Shown here: piece after piece, positions 11,598-34,230 of the stretch
How positions within the stretch are numbered: the first letter of the stretch is position 1
Layout: each line of letters opens with the position of its first letter
From: a virus
DNA length: 64,000 bases
Virus record (IMG/VR): IMGVR_UViG_3300030099_008235
Span: 1 to 64,000 of that record
Reading direction: 5' to 3' (one strand)
Notes under the pieces: model-generated
Told to the model about the DNA's origin: nothing
Databases searched by the model: none
The model's input: only the letters and a program-made list of their open reading frames with translations
Position numbers and translations under genes: made by a program

Positions 11598-11629
11598 TTG
11601 CTTTATAGCATAGAGAATATAACTACAAT

Positions 11630-11797
11630 ATGGAAGAAGTTATAGTTGAGGGTCTTAATTTTGAAGATTTTGTAACTCTAAAAGAAATTTTATCTAATAA
11701 TACTAGCTTTAAATATAGTGAAAGTCAATTGCATGCTGACGCGAGTATTTTAATTGAAAAGATAGATAAAATTCTTCAAGTCTTTGATGATGAATAA
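11630..11797 (+). CDS. Small acidic protein, unknown
   Basis: 55 residues (MEEVIVEGLNFEDFVTLKEI...), acidic and predicted mostly helical. It fills the gap between a fibre gene and the next small gene. The start is an ATG after an A/T-rich leader with no Shine-Dalgarno. Its TAA stop is part of the AATAAATA box of the following gene. Function is unknown; a small chaperone or connector for the neighbouring tail proteins is possible but unsupported. Confidence 0.55.
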   Translation: MEEVIVEGLNFEDFVTLKEILSNNTSFKYSESQLHADASILIEKIDKILQVFDDE

Positions 11798-11800
11798 ATA
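11793..11800 (+). promoter_or_regulatory. Late-promoter-like box AATAAATA
   Basis: AATAAATA containing the stop of the 55-residue gene, 5 nt before the ATG at 11806. Confidence 0.5.
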
Positions 11801-11805
11801 CTTGT

Positions 11806-28058: not shown

Positions 28059-28804
28059 GCGCATTTTTTACAATTATTTTCTTCGTATAGCTTATCCAAC
28101 TTTTCCTGTTGGATATAAGTGATAGGGTCTTTTAAACCAGCATCCACAAATCCTTTTACTCTCATACTACTCGACGGTGTAGTAGCATCTGCTAGTTTAT
28201 CTTTTCTATCTGAATAACAAGTCCAAGTATCTTTAAATTTAACACCAAGTCTAGCACCCTCTTTAATAATTTCAGCTTTAGACATAACAAGTAAAGGGGC
28301 TTCAATTTTAACTCTATTTTCTCTATTAAGTTCTGTCACTTTATTTACCGTATCTACGAACTCTTCACTACCATCCCAGTAGCCTGCTAACGAATCAACT
28401 TGAGCAGCGCCATACCATACTGTATCTGCATCTACACTTTCAGCATAAGCAGAACAAATAGATAAAAACATTAAGTTTCTAAACGGTACATAAGATACAG
28501 GTTGAGCATCTCCTGCTATTTTACTAATATCAGGATTATCAATATCAGTATTAGTTAAAGAAGATGTAGGAGCTATATCTTTAATATAGTTTACATCTAA
28601 AACTTTATTAGTTACTTCAATATTCTTATATTTTTCTATAAAGTTAGTAATCTGCTTATCAACGCATTTAAGTTCACGTCTATGTCTTTGACCGTAATCA
28701 AAGGTCAATGTATGTATTTCATCATACCCTCTATCTTGCGCCATATATAACAGCACAGATGAGTCCATTCCACCACTAAGAGTCAGTACTAATTTTTTCA
28801 TCAT
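28055..28804 (-). CDS. queC: 7-cyano-7-deazaguanine synthase (QueC)
   Basis: 249 residues. The PP-loop ATP motif LTLSGGMDSSVLLY is at the N-terminus, followed by TFDYGQRHRREL and VPFRNLMFLS, all QueC hallmarks. The C-terminus has WTCYSDRKD and ENNCKKCA, giving three Cys of the zinc site. It converts 7-carboxy-7-deazaguanine to preQ0 with ATP and ammonia. It works with FolE, QueD and QueE genes of this window. It overlaps the uvsX gene by 29 nt. Confidence 0.9.
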   Translation of the reverse strand: MMKKLVLTLSGGMDSSVLLYMAQDRGYDEIHTLTFDYGQRHRRELKCVDKQITNFIEKYKNIEVTNKVLDVNYIKDIAPTSSLTNTDIDNPDISKIAGDAQPVSYVPFRNLMFLSICSAYAESVDADTVWYGAAQVDSLAGYWDGSEEFVDTVNKVTELNRENRVKIEAPLLVMSKAEIIKEGARLGVKFKDTWTCYSDRKDKLADATTPSSSMRVKGFVDAGLKDPITYIQQEKLDKLYEENNCKKCA

Positions 28805-29903
28805 TAATTAAATCTTCTAATTCAAGTTCATCGGGGATATCTTCTTCGTTATTGCTATAGGACCATTCCTTACCAATACGTTCTTCAACTTTAGGTAAGA
28901 TAGTTTCTTCCCAAAGCTTAGTATCCTTTCTCCAATTTTTATAATAACCTAACTTAGTACCATCTTCAAGCTGATAAGTTGCGCCAGTTTGAATTACAGC
29001 ACCTACACCTACAGCCAGATCAACTAAACCATAATATCTATCTAATCCAGAAGAGAAAGATAAATACATTTCCCCTTCTAAGTATTGCTTAATAAATCTA
29101 TTCTTACGTGTGAGAGCTCTAATAATAATACCGGAGTATTTTTTCTGACCTACAGCTAACTCACCATCAACAGTTTTACCGCCATCAGACTTCATAGGCT
29201 TACGTGCAAGTTGTACAGTTACTGACGGTAAATAAATACAAGATTTACCTCCTGGCATATTTTTTTCAATAGAAGGAAATAAAGCAGTAGGATCATCATA
29301 AACATGATTAGTACATAAGATGGTAGTTTGAGTTACAGAACCTAAATTAGTACAAGTTTGCATTAATGTTTTCATAGCTCGAGCTTTTGTACCCATATCT
29401 GATGAAGTACTATCTTTATTCATACGATTAAGCTCTAACTCTGATTGTAGGTTAGCTAAAGAATCAATAGCTACAATAAATTTACCTTCAAGTCCCTTTT
29501 CTTTAACGGAAGTAAGGAATTTATAAAGGGAGTTCCTAGCTTGTTCAATACTAGTACAAGGAACATATTTTACTTTACTAATATCTAAACCTAGTCTTTC
29601 CGCACCACCTGGATCGATAGCATTTTCAGTATCAAAGATAACTGGAATAAGTCCTTCTTCTTGAGCTTTAGCTAGAATCTTTTGAACAAATAAAGACTTA
29701 CCAGTCATAGATTCACCAGCAAGCATAGTTACTCTTCCTTTAGGAATACCGCCATTAATAGAACCAGAAATGATAGCATTCAGTACATATGACCCTGTAT
29801 CAATCCACTCACCGACATGACTTAACGTATTATTATCAAGGTAAGTAGCGAAAGGGTTAACTTTATCGATAGCGTCTAAAGCACTAGTAATATCTTTATC
29901 CAT
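28776..29903 (-). CDS. uvsX: UvsX recombinase (RecA/Rad51 family)
   Basis: 375 residues (T4: 393). Walker A GESMTGKS at 63-70, VIFDTENAIDP, Walker B-like FIVAIDSLANLQ, and the L2 region with TTILCTNHVYDD. It forms the presynaptic filament for strand exchange and recombination-dependent replication, loaded by UvsY through gp32. The acidic C-terminus is typical. Confidence 0.9.
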   Translation of the reverse strand: MDKDITSALDAIDKVNPFATYLDNNTLSHVGEWIDTGSYVLNAIISGSINGGIPKGRVTMLAGESMTGKSLFVQKILAKAQEEGLIPVIFDTENAIDPGGAERLGLDISKVKYVPCTSIEQARNSLYKFLTSVKEKGLEGKFIVAIDSLANLQSELELNRMNKDSTSSDMGTKARAMKTLMQTCTNLGSVTQTTILCTNHVYDDPTALFPSIEKNMPGGKSCIYLPSVTVQLARKPMKSDGGKTVDGELAVGQKKYSGIIIRALTRKNRFIKQYLEGEMYLSFSSGLDRYYGLVDLAVGVGAVIQTGATYQLEDGTKLGYYKNWRKDTKLWEETILPKVEERIGKEWSYSNNEEDIPDELELEDLINDEKISTDS

Positions 29904-29911
29904 ATATAAGA

Positions 29912-30229
29912 TTATATTTTCTTATATATACTTTTCAACTGTTTAATTTGTTCCAAAAGATCTAATACATTAGTAACTTTTATTGTATCAGTTTGTATTG
30001 TCATGGGATAGTTTAACTGTGTATCAATACGTATACCTTCAACATCACATTCTGGAGTTACCATATCATCAACAAAGTCATATAAACCTTGACTCTTAAG
30101 ATTTTTATAATGGTAATCAATTAACGGTTTAGTTGTTTCAACTACAACATTAGCATCAGCCATCATTGTTAAATACCTAAAGTATAGCCCTTCATTTGTT
30201 GTTAAATCTGCTATAACTATTAAGTTCAC
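29912..30229 (-). CDS. Small protein, unknown
   Basis: 105 residues from a GTG at 30229 (MNLIVIADLTTNEGLYFRYL). That start is chosen because a CATAAATA box ends 5 nt before it, and any upstream start would read through the terminator at 30243-30269. The first strand with an Asp (VIADLTT) loosely recalls HAD-type folds, but the later motifs are not convincing. Function unknown. Confidence 0.6.
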   Translation of the reverse strand: MNLIVIADLTTNEGLYFRYLTMMADANVVVETTKPLIDYHYKNLKSQGLYDFVDDMVTPECDVEGIRIDTQLNYPMTIQTDTIKVTNVLDLLEQIKQLKSIYKKI

Positions 30230-30234
30230 ATAAT

Positions 30235-30242
30235 TATTTATG
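30235..30242 (-). promoter_or_regulatory. Late-promoter-like box CATAAATA
   Basis: Minus-strand CATAAATA, 5 nt before the GTG at 30229 and directly behind a terminator, so it can supply fresh transcription of the downstream gene. Confidence 0.6.
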
Positions 30243-30269
30243 CATAAAAAAAGCCCCTTACGGGGCTTT
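30243..30269 (-). terminator. Rho-independent terminator, minus strand
   Basis: On the minus strand AAAGCCCC-GTAA-GGGGCTTT forms an 8-bp stem (30250-30269) followed by a T run. It ends transcription arriving from hsp20 and the GC-richer region 30270-30470. Confidence 0.85.
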
Positions 30270-30465
30270 AAAAGGTGGGTGAGAGGATTTTCTGGTAACC
30301 TCCAACTTTCAGTGAGCAAGATGCAGTTTCATCTTTTTACCTACTTGTGCCCTGCTTTTTTACACTTAATAGTCAGTTGACCCTCCATGTACGTTACAGT
30401 CCCTTTAACACTCTTGCTTAAAATGTTTATTCAGGCACACCCGGGGTTGGGCTAGCTAGGCCCAT
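30243..30465 (-). ncRNA. Candidate structured RNA or long hsp20 3' UTR
   Basis: About 220 bases without a convincing ORF in an otherwise gapless genome, visibly more GC-rich than its flanks, ending in a strong terminator. On the minus strand the 5' end has a GGGC/GCCC hairpin (30449-30463). A long-range GTGCC/GGCAC pairing joins 30432-30438 to 30347-30354, and AGATG/CATCT forms a hairpin at 30319-30334. A TATAAT at 30473-30478 overlaps the hsp20 stop and could be a promoter; no clear -35. It is not a tRNA or tmRNA by eye. Confidence 0.4.
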
Positions 30466-30473
30466 ATAAATTA

Positions 30474-30884
30474 TTATACCTTATAAGTTTTAATGTATTC
30501 TTCTTTTTTTCTTCGAGGTACATCTACCTCGAGAACTCCATTAACGTAAGAAAATTTAATCTTATTAAGGTCAAACTCTCTCCCTACTGAGAACGATCTA
30601 TTATAAGTCTGTTCTTTTGCCCCGTCGTGAGTTTTAATTTTGCGTTTAGCTTTAATATAAACTTCACGTTGATCTGTATCTGTAGAAAGATTTAGATCTT
30701 CTTTTATAACTCCCGGTAGATCAATTTGTACACTTAATGTATTTTCGTCTTGCGAAAAACGAACTTGATCTCCGGTTTTATATACTTCTTCCAGCTGGTG
30801 GAAGACTGGTGTCAGATTAAAAAAACCATCAAAGGCTTTTTCGATTTCTGCGATTGGATTATGTGTGTATCTAGTTAGTTTCAT
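30474..30884 (-). CDS. hsp20: Small heat shock protein (Hsp20/IbpA family)
   Basis: 136 residues with an alpha-crystallin domain: SVQIDLPGVIKEDLNLSTD, VYIKAKRK and YVNGVLEVDVPRRK, the last carrying the conserved G-x-L strand. The C-terminus is short and lacks a clear IxI motif. Hsp20 holdases are frequent in marine T4-like phages, where a role in virion assembly or host stress is presumed. An AATAAATA box lies 8 nt upstream of the start. Confidence 0.88.
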   Translation of the reverse strand: MKLTRYTHNPIAEIEKAFDGFFNLTPVFHQLEEVYKTGDQVRFSQDENTLSVQIDLPGVIKEDLNLSTDTDQREVYIKAKRKIKTHDGAKEQTYNRSFSVGREFDLNKIKFSYVNGVLEVDVPRRKKEEYIKTYKV

Positions 30885-30892
30885 AGTAAAAA

Positions 30893-30900
30893 TATTTATT
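30893..30900 (-). promoter_or_regulatory. Late-promoter-like box AATAAATA
   Basis: Minus-strand AATAAATA ending 8 nt before the hsp20 ATG. Confidence 0.4.
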
Positions 30901-30922: not shown

Positions 30923-31294
30923 TTAATCGTCAAAAAGCTTAATTACTTCAGGCTCTTCTTCTTGAGCTGGTTGCTCTTGAATAGGAGGTTGTGGATTATT
31001 AATATTTTCATACTGAGTAATAATCCTATCGTCAAGATCAACGTCTGAAGTACTAATAGCACTCTTAGTAAAGGTCCAATTATTTTTTTCTTTATCTTTT
31101 AGAAACTCCATAAAGATATATGGGAAAGATTGAACTTGTAATTGTCCTGACTGTGCATCTGGCTGTACGTGAATAATTACAGGGTTAAATAAAGTAACTG
31201 TTTTTGCATCTTCTTTAGAAACAGTCCCTACAACGGTACGTCCAATATGATCGATAATGGTCGTAATTTTTGGTTTTGGTTTTTTATCTGCCAT
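30923..31294 (-). CDS. Conserved phage protein with clamp-binding-like tail
   Basis: 123 residues. A basic N-terminus (MADKKPKPKITTIIDHIGRT) leads into a small beta-barrel-like region (VVGTVSKEDAKTVTLFNPVIIHV). An acidic Pro/Gln linker follows, ending in EVIKLFDD. The final hydrophobic/acidic motif resembles short clamp-binding tails of T4 proteins (inference). It lies between hsp20 and DNA polymerase genes. Function unknown. Confidence 0.6.
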   Translation of the reverse strand: MADKKPKPKITTIIDHIGRTVVGTVSKEDAKTVTLFNPVIIHVQPDAQSGQLQVQSFPYIFMEFLKDKEKNNWTFTKSAISTSDVDLDDRIITQYENINNPQPPIQEQPAQEEEPEVIKLFDD

Positions 31295-31653: not shown

Positions 31654-34230
31654 TTATTTACTAAACAAGTCAAATAATTCAACCTGTACATTATCAGCTG
31701 GTTTTCTAATACTCCAGCCTACACAATCGTAAAATCTTTCTATGCCTTGAAATAAGATCTTTTCAAACATTTTATCATAATTAATTTTAAACGTTTGTTT
31801 AAACTCCGAAGGGTATTCATACTTAAAACCAATACTATCTAATCCGTATTTATTAGGCTTTTCAACATACATATAACGAACTTTATCACCTGATCCTAAA
31901 GATTCATACTTGTTACCTGTATTAAGTTTATCTAATAGCAAATTATAAAAATAAGCTGACTTAACATGAATAGGCATACTCTTAACAGTATTAAACTCCC
32001 TACAATCTACAGCATACTTTTCATAACCTTTTACACCCATAACAAAAGCAAGTTCTTCAGGACTTAATTCTTTAAAAATATCATAAGTTTCATTAAGCAC
32101 TTTATTAGTTTCAGTTAAAGACTGAGTACTTAACATAGTTTCAATAATTTTTTTAGCGTACGGCTTAATTGCGTTAGGCATAGTAGTTCGAACTACTTCA
32201 ACACCTGTATACTTAAATTTATTTTCCTTAATACCTTCATCGTCTAAGATATGCATTACATATCGTTTTTTCTGTAAGAAGACACCAACGTCAGCAATAC
32301 ATTCACGTTTAAATACAAAGCGACTATCTTTAGATAATAGAGATTTTTTAGCCCAATCTTGTACCCCGGCATTTAGATAGTCTTCAATTTCTTGTATTTT
32401 ATTATGAGTATCTTGATGGATATCTTCACCATCTAAAAAGTTCAATCCTTTTTCAACAAGAGGAGTAATCGATACATATGAAGAGTCGGTATCGTTATAA
32501 ACAATACATTCTTCTAATTCTTTATCAGATATATCAGGTATTTCCTTTTTAATAAACTCTTTAATAAGTTCATTCGAATACTTAATAACAGCTTGACCAG
32601 TTAACGTTACAGATGAGGCAATATCGTCATCACCAATAGGAGCGTTTTTATTGCCCATATATCCATAACAAGAATTAATAAGAATCTTAATAACCATCTG
32701 CGAAGTATTAAGTCGTTCTACTTCATATTTAGCTTCAATATATTCCGGAGTATCTTTCTTAAGTTTCTTAAGTTTAGTTTTAGCTTTAAAGAGATCTTCT
32801 TTAATCTTTACTCGTTGATTATAGTAATGTTCGAGAAACTCAGGTATAATACCTTTTTTCTTTTGTGTAAAAAGGAACCCAGCTTTTGATAACGCACATT
32901 CTTCATCTTTAAGAAATTTTACAAATGCAGGTTTATCTAACTCAAATACTTTACCGGCTACATGTTGTATAACAATCTTATCATCAGTAGTTTTTTCAAC
33001 TCTACCTACTTTAGTTTCCGGCGAAGTATTAAGAGATATCATCACATTAGGATATAGGGAGTTAGCATCAAAAGATACTATATGATTCTTAAATCCTTGT
33101 TTAGGTTCAGCAACATAAGCACCCGGATTCTTTCCAGTATCAGCATTACGTAAAAACGTTGCAATTATCTCCCCTCTTTGTCTACCTCTAATACATAATG
33201 CACCGTTAATAACACCAATAGTACCCATAGCACCTTCAAGCGTAGTTAAGCCTACGTAAGATAACTTTCGCAATAAAGGAAAATATTGCAGTTTATCTTC
33301 TAATCGAACGAGCAAATTAACATCTTGAATATTATAGTCAATAAAAGTATCCCAATCATCTTCCGATAAAGAAGCAAGATTAGTATCACCGTAATCAATC
33401 TTTCGTTGCCCGAGCTCTACTTCACCAATAGCGTCAAGTTTATAAGACTCTCTTAACTTTAAACAAAACCGTTTATAAACATCTAAATAATCTAAACAAG
33501 CTACACCATCAATATAGTAACGTTTTTGATCTTGACCAAACTTACCTTTAATAGCTCTAAAATGAACTCTACCCAAAGGCGAAAGTCTATTAACATAATC
33601 CTGACCTAAGATTCTTTCAATACGGTTAATAATATAAGGTATATCGAAAAACTCAGAGTTCCAACCACTCAATATATCCGGATAGTCTCTTTCAAGATAT
33701 TCAATAAATCTAATAAACATCTCACGTTCATCTTTACAATAAACATAATTAAGATTATCAACGCCCTTGCCGTTATATGGTTTAATACCAAATGTATGAA
33801 ACTTTTTACTAAAATTATCGTAACAAGTTATTACGTTAACAGTATGAGTAGGATTTTCAGGATCAGGAAACGTATCGGGAGAGTAAGTTTCAATATCTAA
33901 TAAACACGTTTTAAGAGGATGAGTACTAAATTCCTTTTCTTCATTTTGCTCCCAATATAAATCTAGTAAAAATTGTTGAGCCGGCGGCATATTTTCAAAT
34001 ACACGCTTTATATTAGAATCGCGTACGAATCTAGATCTATCAAAACTAGTATTAAATTTACGTTTTTTAACTTTAGTACCATAGATAGACGTTTTATCAC
34101 CGGCTGCATTTTCAATATATAGATAAGGTTCAAAAGAACACTCATGCATTACCCTCTTACCTTCTGTATCCCAGGTAAATAAATTAACACAACGGTTTCT
34201 ACCGTTATACACTACATTACGATACGACAT
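31654..34230 (-). CDS. 43: Family B DNA polymerase (gp43)
   Basis: 858 residues (T4: 898), intact in one frame. Exonuclease motifs are LLDIETYSPD, LSGWNSEFFDIPYI and FIDYNIQDVNLL. Polymerase motifs are VSFDANSLYPNVM (A), KILINSCYGYMG (B) and YNDTDSSYVS (C). The C-terminal VELFDLFSK resembles the clamp-interacting tail of T4/RB69 polymerase. It replicates the phage genome with gp45. An inverted repeat directly before the ATG (34232-34250) may serve translational autoregulation, as in T4. Confidence 0.95.
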   Translation of the reverse strand: MSYRNVVYNGRNRCVNLFTWDTEGKRVMHECSFEPYLYIENAAGDKTSIYGTKVKKRKFNTSFDRSRFVRDSNIKRVFENMPPAQQFLLDLYWEQNEEKEFSTHPLKTCLLDIETYSPDTFPDPENPTHTVNVITCYDNFSKKFHTFGIKPYNGKGVDNLNYVYCKDEREMFIRFIEYLERDYPDILSGWNSEFFDIPYIINRIERILGQDYVNRLSPLGRVHFRAIKGKFGQDQKRYYIDGVACLDYLDVYKRFCLKLRESYKLDAIGEVELGQRKIDYGDTNLASLSEDDWDTFIDYNIQDVNLLVRLEDKLQYFPLLRKLSYVGLTTLEGAMGTIGVINGALCIRGRQRGEIIATFLRNADTGKNPGAYVAEPKQGFKNHIVSFDANSLYPNVMISLNTSPETKVGRVEKTTDDKIVIQHVAGKVFELDKPAFVKFLKDEECALSKAGFLFTQKKKGIIPEFLEHYYNQRVKIKEDLFKAKTKLKKLKKDTPEYIEAKYEVERLNTSQMVIKILINSCYGYMGNKNAPIGDDDIASSVTLTGQAVIKYSNELIKEFIKKEIPDISDKELEECIVYNDTDSSYVSITPLVEKGLNFLDGEDIHQDTHNKIQEIEDYLNAGVQDWAKKSLLSKDSRFVFKRECIADVGVFLQKKRYVMHILDDEGIKENKFKYTGVEVVRTTMPNAIKPYAKKIIETMLSTQSLTETNKVLNETYDIFKELSPEELAFVMGVKGYEKYAVDCREFNTVKSMPIHVKSAYFYNLLLDKLNTGNKYESLGSGDKVRYMYVEKPNKYGLDSIGFKYEYPSEFKQTFKINYDKMFEKILFQGIERFYDCVGWSIRKPADNVQVELFDLFSK

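Follow-up and report, generated by a model that had tools for sequence, protein, structure and literature searches.

A probable divergent manA RNA in the 3' untranslated region of the late hsp20 message of an uncultured T4-like marine phage

The hsp20 locus and its relatives

The minus strand of the window (the whole stretch of DNA analysed, 64,000 nucleotides) carried, in this order, hsp20, a spacer of 8 nt, a structured RNA, an intrinsic terminator, the element CATAAATA, a small ORF and uvsX, the genes 3' of the RNA being co-oriented with hsp20 (Table 1). The GC content was 44% from the hsp20 stop to the terminator (32% for the window). ORF inspection found no convincing gene in this interval, ARAGORN found neither a tRNA nor a tmRNA there, and single-base indels among homologues in the RNA alignment argued against a small coding frame. 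The initial annotation had described the interval as GC-rich, self-complementary and free of real ORFs, and this description was borne out; conservation, compensatory pairing and an invariant terminator (see below) supported a structured RNA. Its ranking as the largest gene-free interval depended on the ORF rule; at 60 aa, an AT-rich gap of 192 bp (11614-11805) was longer, as were two others near the right-hand limit of the window.

Table 1. Features of the hsp20 locus, listed along the minus strand (positions in the window).
Feature	Position	Strand	Evidence or remarks
Sm-like protein gene (predicted), one gene upstream of hsp20	30923-31294	-	AlphaFold2 fold
T4-type late promoter element AATAAATA (putative)	30893-30900	-	Directly 5' of the hsp20 ATG
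hsp20, 136 aa, Hsp20/alpha-crystallin	30474-30884	-	Pfam PF00011, E 1.1e-13; PHROG 432, E 1.4e-8
hsp20 stop codon	30474-30476	-	
Putative manA-like structured RNA, type A, whole element (~194 nt)	30272-30465	-	RF01745; cyanophage-only model, E 1.4e-4
P0 hairpin TGGGC/GCCCA	30448-30464	-	Paired in 18-19/19 homologues
P1 5' arm GGGTG, partner 30277-30281	30438-30442	-	29/30 pairs kept, six divergent groups
P2 5' arm CC, partner GG at 30402-30403; then conserved UGAAUAA	30434-30435	-	
AGATG/CATCT hairpin, at the manA inner P4 hairpin position	30319-30334	-	Invariant, 19/19; model alignment
P5 hairpin GGAGG/CCTCT, conserved GGU.A..AG.AAUCC motif	30282-30303	-	30/30 pairs, six groups
P1 3' arm CACCC	30277-30281	-	Same six-group comparison
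Intrinsic terminator AAAGCCCCGTAAGGGGCTTT plus T-run	30250-30269	-	23/23 distinct homologues; also in RNA-less relatives
Late-promoter-like element CATAAATA of the next gene	30235-30242	-	
Small downstream ORF, GTG start, only in some relatives	29912-30229	-	
uvsX sigma-70-type promoter TTGAAA-16-TATAAT	29911-29938	-	11/12 matches; similar element before uvsX in relatives

A search with Hsp20 gave 73 loci, and in 48 close relatives the DNA downstream could be read. These 48 were divided according to what followed hsp20: an RNA like that of the window (type A, 30 relatives), a second, strongly diverged RNA (type B; L011, L012, L043 and L051) or the terminator only (14 relatives). Another RNA, type C, was seen in three genomes (G037, G048 and G056); in the first two it lay behind a Sm-like gene, not hsp20, and was followed by a terminator and then by a promoter element. 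Types A, B and C were mutually divergent and shared the same replication locus, and the relatives carrying the RNA were uncultured T4-like marine phages. The gene after the type A RNA and its terminator was the small ORF (17 relatives), uvsX (11) or another gene (2), and the RNA stayed behind hsp20 whatever gene came next. The strong terminator reported initially lay directly after the RNA in all 23 distinct homologues (scan counting stems that run into the T-tract), and was also kept in relatives without the RNA. Since the RNA was missing in 14 of the 48 relatives, it is dispensable or replaceable. The mean identity of the type A RNA was about 94%, against 69% at the third codon positions of hsp20 in the same phages; this low divergence could stem in part from recent spread by recombination.

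DNA similarity to cultured phages was limited to terminator-like fragments and, for type B, to a 26-nt piece. The DNA polymerase (31654-34230, minus strand) and UvsX (28776-29903, minus strand) of the window showed only about 31-33% identity to the best-matching phage proteins of the annotated collection, and, judged from these sequences, the phage lineage appears to be far from the cultured T4-like phages. Several other observations were made around hsp20. One 17 kb contig, IMGVR_UViG_3300030107_007843 (L009, L100), had an RNA-less hsp20 site together with a type A RNA and terminator at its other end, possibly an assembly chimera or a repeated locus. A sister lineage (L055, L057-L064, L066 and L068) showed a different short conserved element directly after the hsp20 stop, containing the late motif TAAATA (AAACTGGCAGGTGAGTACGAATTATAAACTGGGGATGGTTGGTGGG, for example); in L066, an Rfam search with a limit of E 1 gave no match to it. 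An abiF RNA was present in L065 (2894-2929), and glutamine riboswitches were located near hsp20 in L058, L061, L066 and L068. Occurrences of the pattern GTGTGCCTGAATAAAC away from the hsp20 site were rejected as chance matches in apparently coding DNA.

Similarity to manA and conservation of pairing

The interval had been annotated initially as a candidate novel RNA, with an Rfam search proposed as a check. At the gathering thresholds this search gave no matches in the window, nor in the relatives at the hsp20 3' site. A permissive search of the interval, by contrast, gave a single outstanding match, the manA family (RF01745), matched over positions 1-192 of the 192 of the model (40.7 bits, E 2.8e-9; curated gathering cut-off, 55.2 bits), that is, end to end with one internal stretch unmatched. 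At the family level the RNA was thus not novel, but a putative sub-threshold homologue of manA. It was the sole manA match in the 96.6 kb record, and 14 control genomes gave no RF01745 match at E<=0.01. The intact type A and type B copies searched matched RF01745 in full length (37-49 bits) and type C scored 35-41 bits, within a graded series: 177-184 bits for Prochlorococcus phages, 64 for Pelagibacter phage Mosig, 35-49 for types A, B and C, and 25.9 for HTVC008M. An independent model, made only from 25 cyanophage-type manA RNAs, also found the window RNA, as well as type B (E 0.003-0.006); it found nothing in four RNA-less relatives and missed type C and the RNAs of the Pelagibacter phages.

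The manA RNAs were described in potential 5' UTRs, mostly from marine metagenomes and T4-like cyanophages and including those of ibpA chaperone genes (Weinberg et al. 2010, PMC2864571). Strong covariation was reported for the family in Rfam 14 (PMC7779021), and the 5'-UTR view was repeated in the S-CREM1 paper, which called the function unverified (PMC9964418). No manA ligand was reported in the papers found, and the open-access literature searched gave no description of a manA RNA in a 3' UTR or in the lineage of the window.

The window RNA shared with RF01745 the elements P0, P1, P2, P2b and P5, the position of the inner P4 hairpin, the motifs UGAAUAA, UAA(A/G)G and GGU.A..AG.AAUCC (with UGAAUAA and GGUA..AG.AAUCC present as manA motifs), a size of about 190 nt, a T4-like marine phage as host genome, and a neighbouring hsp20 (ibpA) as in some of the described cases. 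It differed from RF01745 in its score, in the divergence of P3 and the outer P4, in the lack of an own promoter, and in its location, which was not in a leader but behind a gene, with an intrinsic terminator immediately after it. The consensus P3 multi-branch and the outer P4 stem were unmatched or unpaired in the window RNA, and type A had its own stems in their place. Because the RNA scored below the Rfam cut-off, departed from the P3/P4 consensus and lay outside the 5'-UTR position typical of manA (a terminator and separate promoter elements stand before the next gene), it is best labelled, on sequence grounds, a manA-like variant: neither a new family nor a formal Rfam member. With this qualification, it is very probably a divergent manA homologue located in the 3' UTR of the late hsp20 mRNA.

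Pairing was compared among six divergent groups: P-SSM4, type A, type B, type C, HTVC008M and Mosig. Compensatory changes kept P1, P2 and P5 together paired at 71 of 72 positions, a count to be read with the origin of the arms in mind: they were taken from alignments to the manA model and so are not fully independent of it, although P1 and P5 adjoin sequence anchors. The arms of P1 were GGGAG/CUCCC, GGGUG/CACCC, GUGAG/CUCAC, AUAUA/UGUAU, GCUAC/GUAGC and UAUAG/CUAUU. When the 3' arms were re-dealt, only one of the 720 arrangements, the true one, reached 71/72, and the best full re-deal reached 49. Folded without constraints or an alignment, types A, B and C each showed P1 and P5. The initial annotation had named homologues without conserved pairing as the observation that would speak against a structured RNA; the homologues compared here, in fact, kept it. 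Two of the hairpins that it had listed also recurred: GGGC/GCCC, which corresponds to P0 and was found in 19/19 distinct homologues (18-19/19 pair), and AGATG/CATCT (Table 1).

The long-range GTGCC/GGCAC pairing, also listed initially, was present and paired in 92 of 95 cells, with pairing maintained solely by one-sided G-U changes; it competes with and excludes the supported P2, was left out of the RNAalifold consensus, and may represent an alternative pairing. Covariation within type A was minimal and uninformative, because the sequences of this type were 96% identical. The folding energy was ordinary (z -1.2 for 230 nt, with 27 of 200 shuffles folding as well; z -0.5 for the RNA alone), and the plus strand of the interval folded no better than shuffles. 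As the folding energy was not above chance, the evidence for structure is comparative. These ordinary energies and the sub-threshold score are what would be expected if the sequence were an unrelated RNA, or a plain GC-rich spacer, resembling manA by chance; this is highly improbable, however, given that the divergent types A, B and C match in full length at one locus, that the changes in P1 are compensatory, and that the scores are graded through Mosig (64 bits).

Transcriptional setting

In those close relatives that were inspected, the late element (A/T)ATAAATA stood before the ATG of hsp20. The T4 late promoter consensus is TATAAATA, and the element was considered a late promoter for this reason. 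The surroundings of the RNA were compared with those of 83 distinct cyanophage-type manA loci from IMG/VR, obtained with a search pattern that favoured cyanophage-type sequences. A sigma-70 promoter was located just upstream of manA in 76 of these 83 loci (9.6% at random positions), and a terminator within 80 nt downstream in only 7 (3% at random). The lineage of the window showed the opposite: no conserved own promoter among the 23 distinct homologues (a weak promoter-like match in 3 of them, at differing places) and the terminator in all, although the 23 copies are related and the contrast is really one of three types (A, B and C) against many cyanophage loci.

The same was seen for individual phages. 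The manA RNAs of the Prochlorococcus phages P-SSM4, P-SSM2 and P-TIM68, also T4-like, had the same architecture as the window RNA but, unlike it, were preceded by TTGACA-N16/17-TATAAT or a close variant. Those of the Pelagibacter phages Mosig and HTVC008M, of intermediate or greater divergence, kept the same P1, P2 and P5 pairing and, unlike the window RNA, had an own promoter and formed leaders before genes for rubrerythrin or a ssDNA-binding protein.

A TATAAT overlapping the hsp20 stop, noted initially, does exist in the window, 7 nt before the RNA, but was absent in most relatives and kept in very few. The own promoter that it implied was not supported, the scan giving no sigma-70 promoter. 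Transcription of a stand-alone small RNA from this point, for which the promoters of the cyanophage manA RNAs offer a precedent, is accordingly very unlikely: the window has no -35 element, and the 3 of 23 homologues that score do so weakly and at differing places.

The genes recognised next after the 83 cyanophage-type manA RNAs were presumably gp32 (18), talC (16), a Sm-like gene (10) and thyX (8). A tRNA gene, for tRNA-Asn or tRNA-Asp, followed directly in 7 of the 83 (L169, L188, L201, L232, L264, L274 and L279), so that translational control is impossible as the role of manA at those sites. Throughout this set (L168-L287), manA was nearly always preceded by TTGACA-N16-18-TATAAT a few nt upstream of P0, and the transcript would therefore start with the P0 hairpin. 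Twenty-one of the 83 loci (e.g. L186, L202 and L239) had a conserved hairpin-like element, GACCTAAGATGCAACTC..GAGTGGGGCAGATGGTC-TTTTT, downstream; that of L202 had no Rfam match. The annotated gene after manA in P-TIM68 (KM359505, 153049-153354) is on the minus strand and may be a misannotation, the plus-strand frame at this place resembling the ORFs that follow manA in L229 and L257.

Possible roles of the RNA

The late element before hsp20, the lack of a conserved own promoter, the invariant terminator and the separate promoter elements downstream support a single late unit of hsp20, RNA and terminator. As read from the sequence, this transcription unit would run from the late promoter (30900-30893) through hsp20 and the manA-like domain to the terminator (30269-30250), and the late hsp20 mRNA would carry the RNA as a self-contained domain at its 3' end.

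manA has been put forward as a candidate riboswitch (Weinberg et al. 2010, PMC2864571). This proposal, the adjacency of RNA and terminator in all copies and the co-orientation of the downstream genes would suit a ligand-sensing RNA that attenuates transcription, deciding whether polymerase passes the terminator and reaches the small ORF, uvsX and what follows. The terminator, however, does not overlap P1 and forms together with it (its pair probability next to P1 was 1.0 in L011, L014 and the window), is kept in RNA-less relatives and is followed by a small ORF and uvsX with promoter elements of their own, all of which makes this control less likely; nor was a conserved antiterminator seen, and attenuation by a riboswitch is considered unlikely. 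Slightly less likely still is processive antitermination of the put type, with the manA RNA making RNA polymerase ignore terminators. Such an activity would agree with the position of cyanophage manA just 3' of a strong promoter and before unrelated genes and tRNAs, and with that of the window RNA right before a terminator, but the RNA stands at the end of the unit in the lineage of the window, and separate promoter elements precede the genes that follow.

Our tentative preference is for a function of the 3'-end domain in the hsp20 message itself: it may stabilise the late hsp20 mRNA, or persist or be processed as a small RNA of about 220 nt, a 3'-UTR-derived form with which the arrangement of the unit is compatible. 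A Sm-like protein encoded by the phage itself could bind the RNA at its folded body and at the U-rich tail of the terminator. This partner, suggested by its neighbourhood only, is a rather doubtful part of the model. The product of the gene one position upstream of hsp20 (123 aa) had no Pfam or PHROG match and a conserved IKLFDD-type C-terminal tail; the best match of its AlphaFold2 model (pLDDT 80.5) was 3by7, a Sm/LSm-like structure of marine metagenomic origin (Foldseek E 2.7e-4; VIA Z 10.8, rmsd 2.6, 82 aligned), and a Sm/LSm-like fold is predicted. Sm-like genes also adjoin manA in some cyanophages, and one such gene has a weak sequence match to 3by7 (E 0.014).

Beyond this locus, manA might be a portable RNA domain, indifferent to its partner gene, and not a 5'-leader riboswitch; this broader reading, somewhat less probable than a role in the hsp20 message, would cover both its use as a leader before gp32, talC, thyX and tRNA genes in cyanophages and as a trailer behind hsp20 or a Sm-like gene here. 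Such a domain could, for example, shield against nucleases, act in antitermination or be a phage small RNA bound by the phage's Sm-like protein.

The manA family itself was already known; what appears to be new, from sequence comparison, is a previously unlisted distant relative at the tail of a gene and before its terminator. The Rfam cut-off for manA misses whole phage lineages, and their divergent sequences broaden the family for work on structure and ligand. The versions that are not leaders also limit the functions that can be considered: whatever manA does in general must be possible in a leader before mRNAs and tRNAs and, equally, in front of a terminator where a late message ends.
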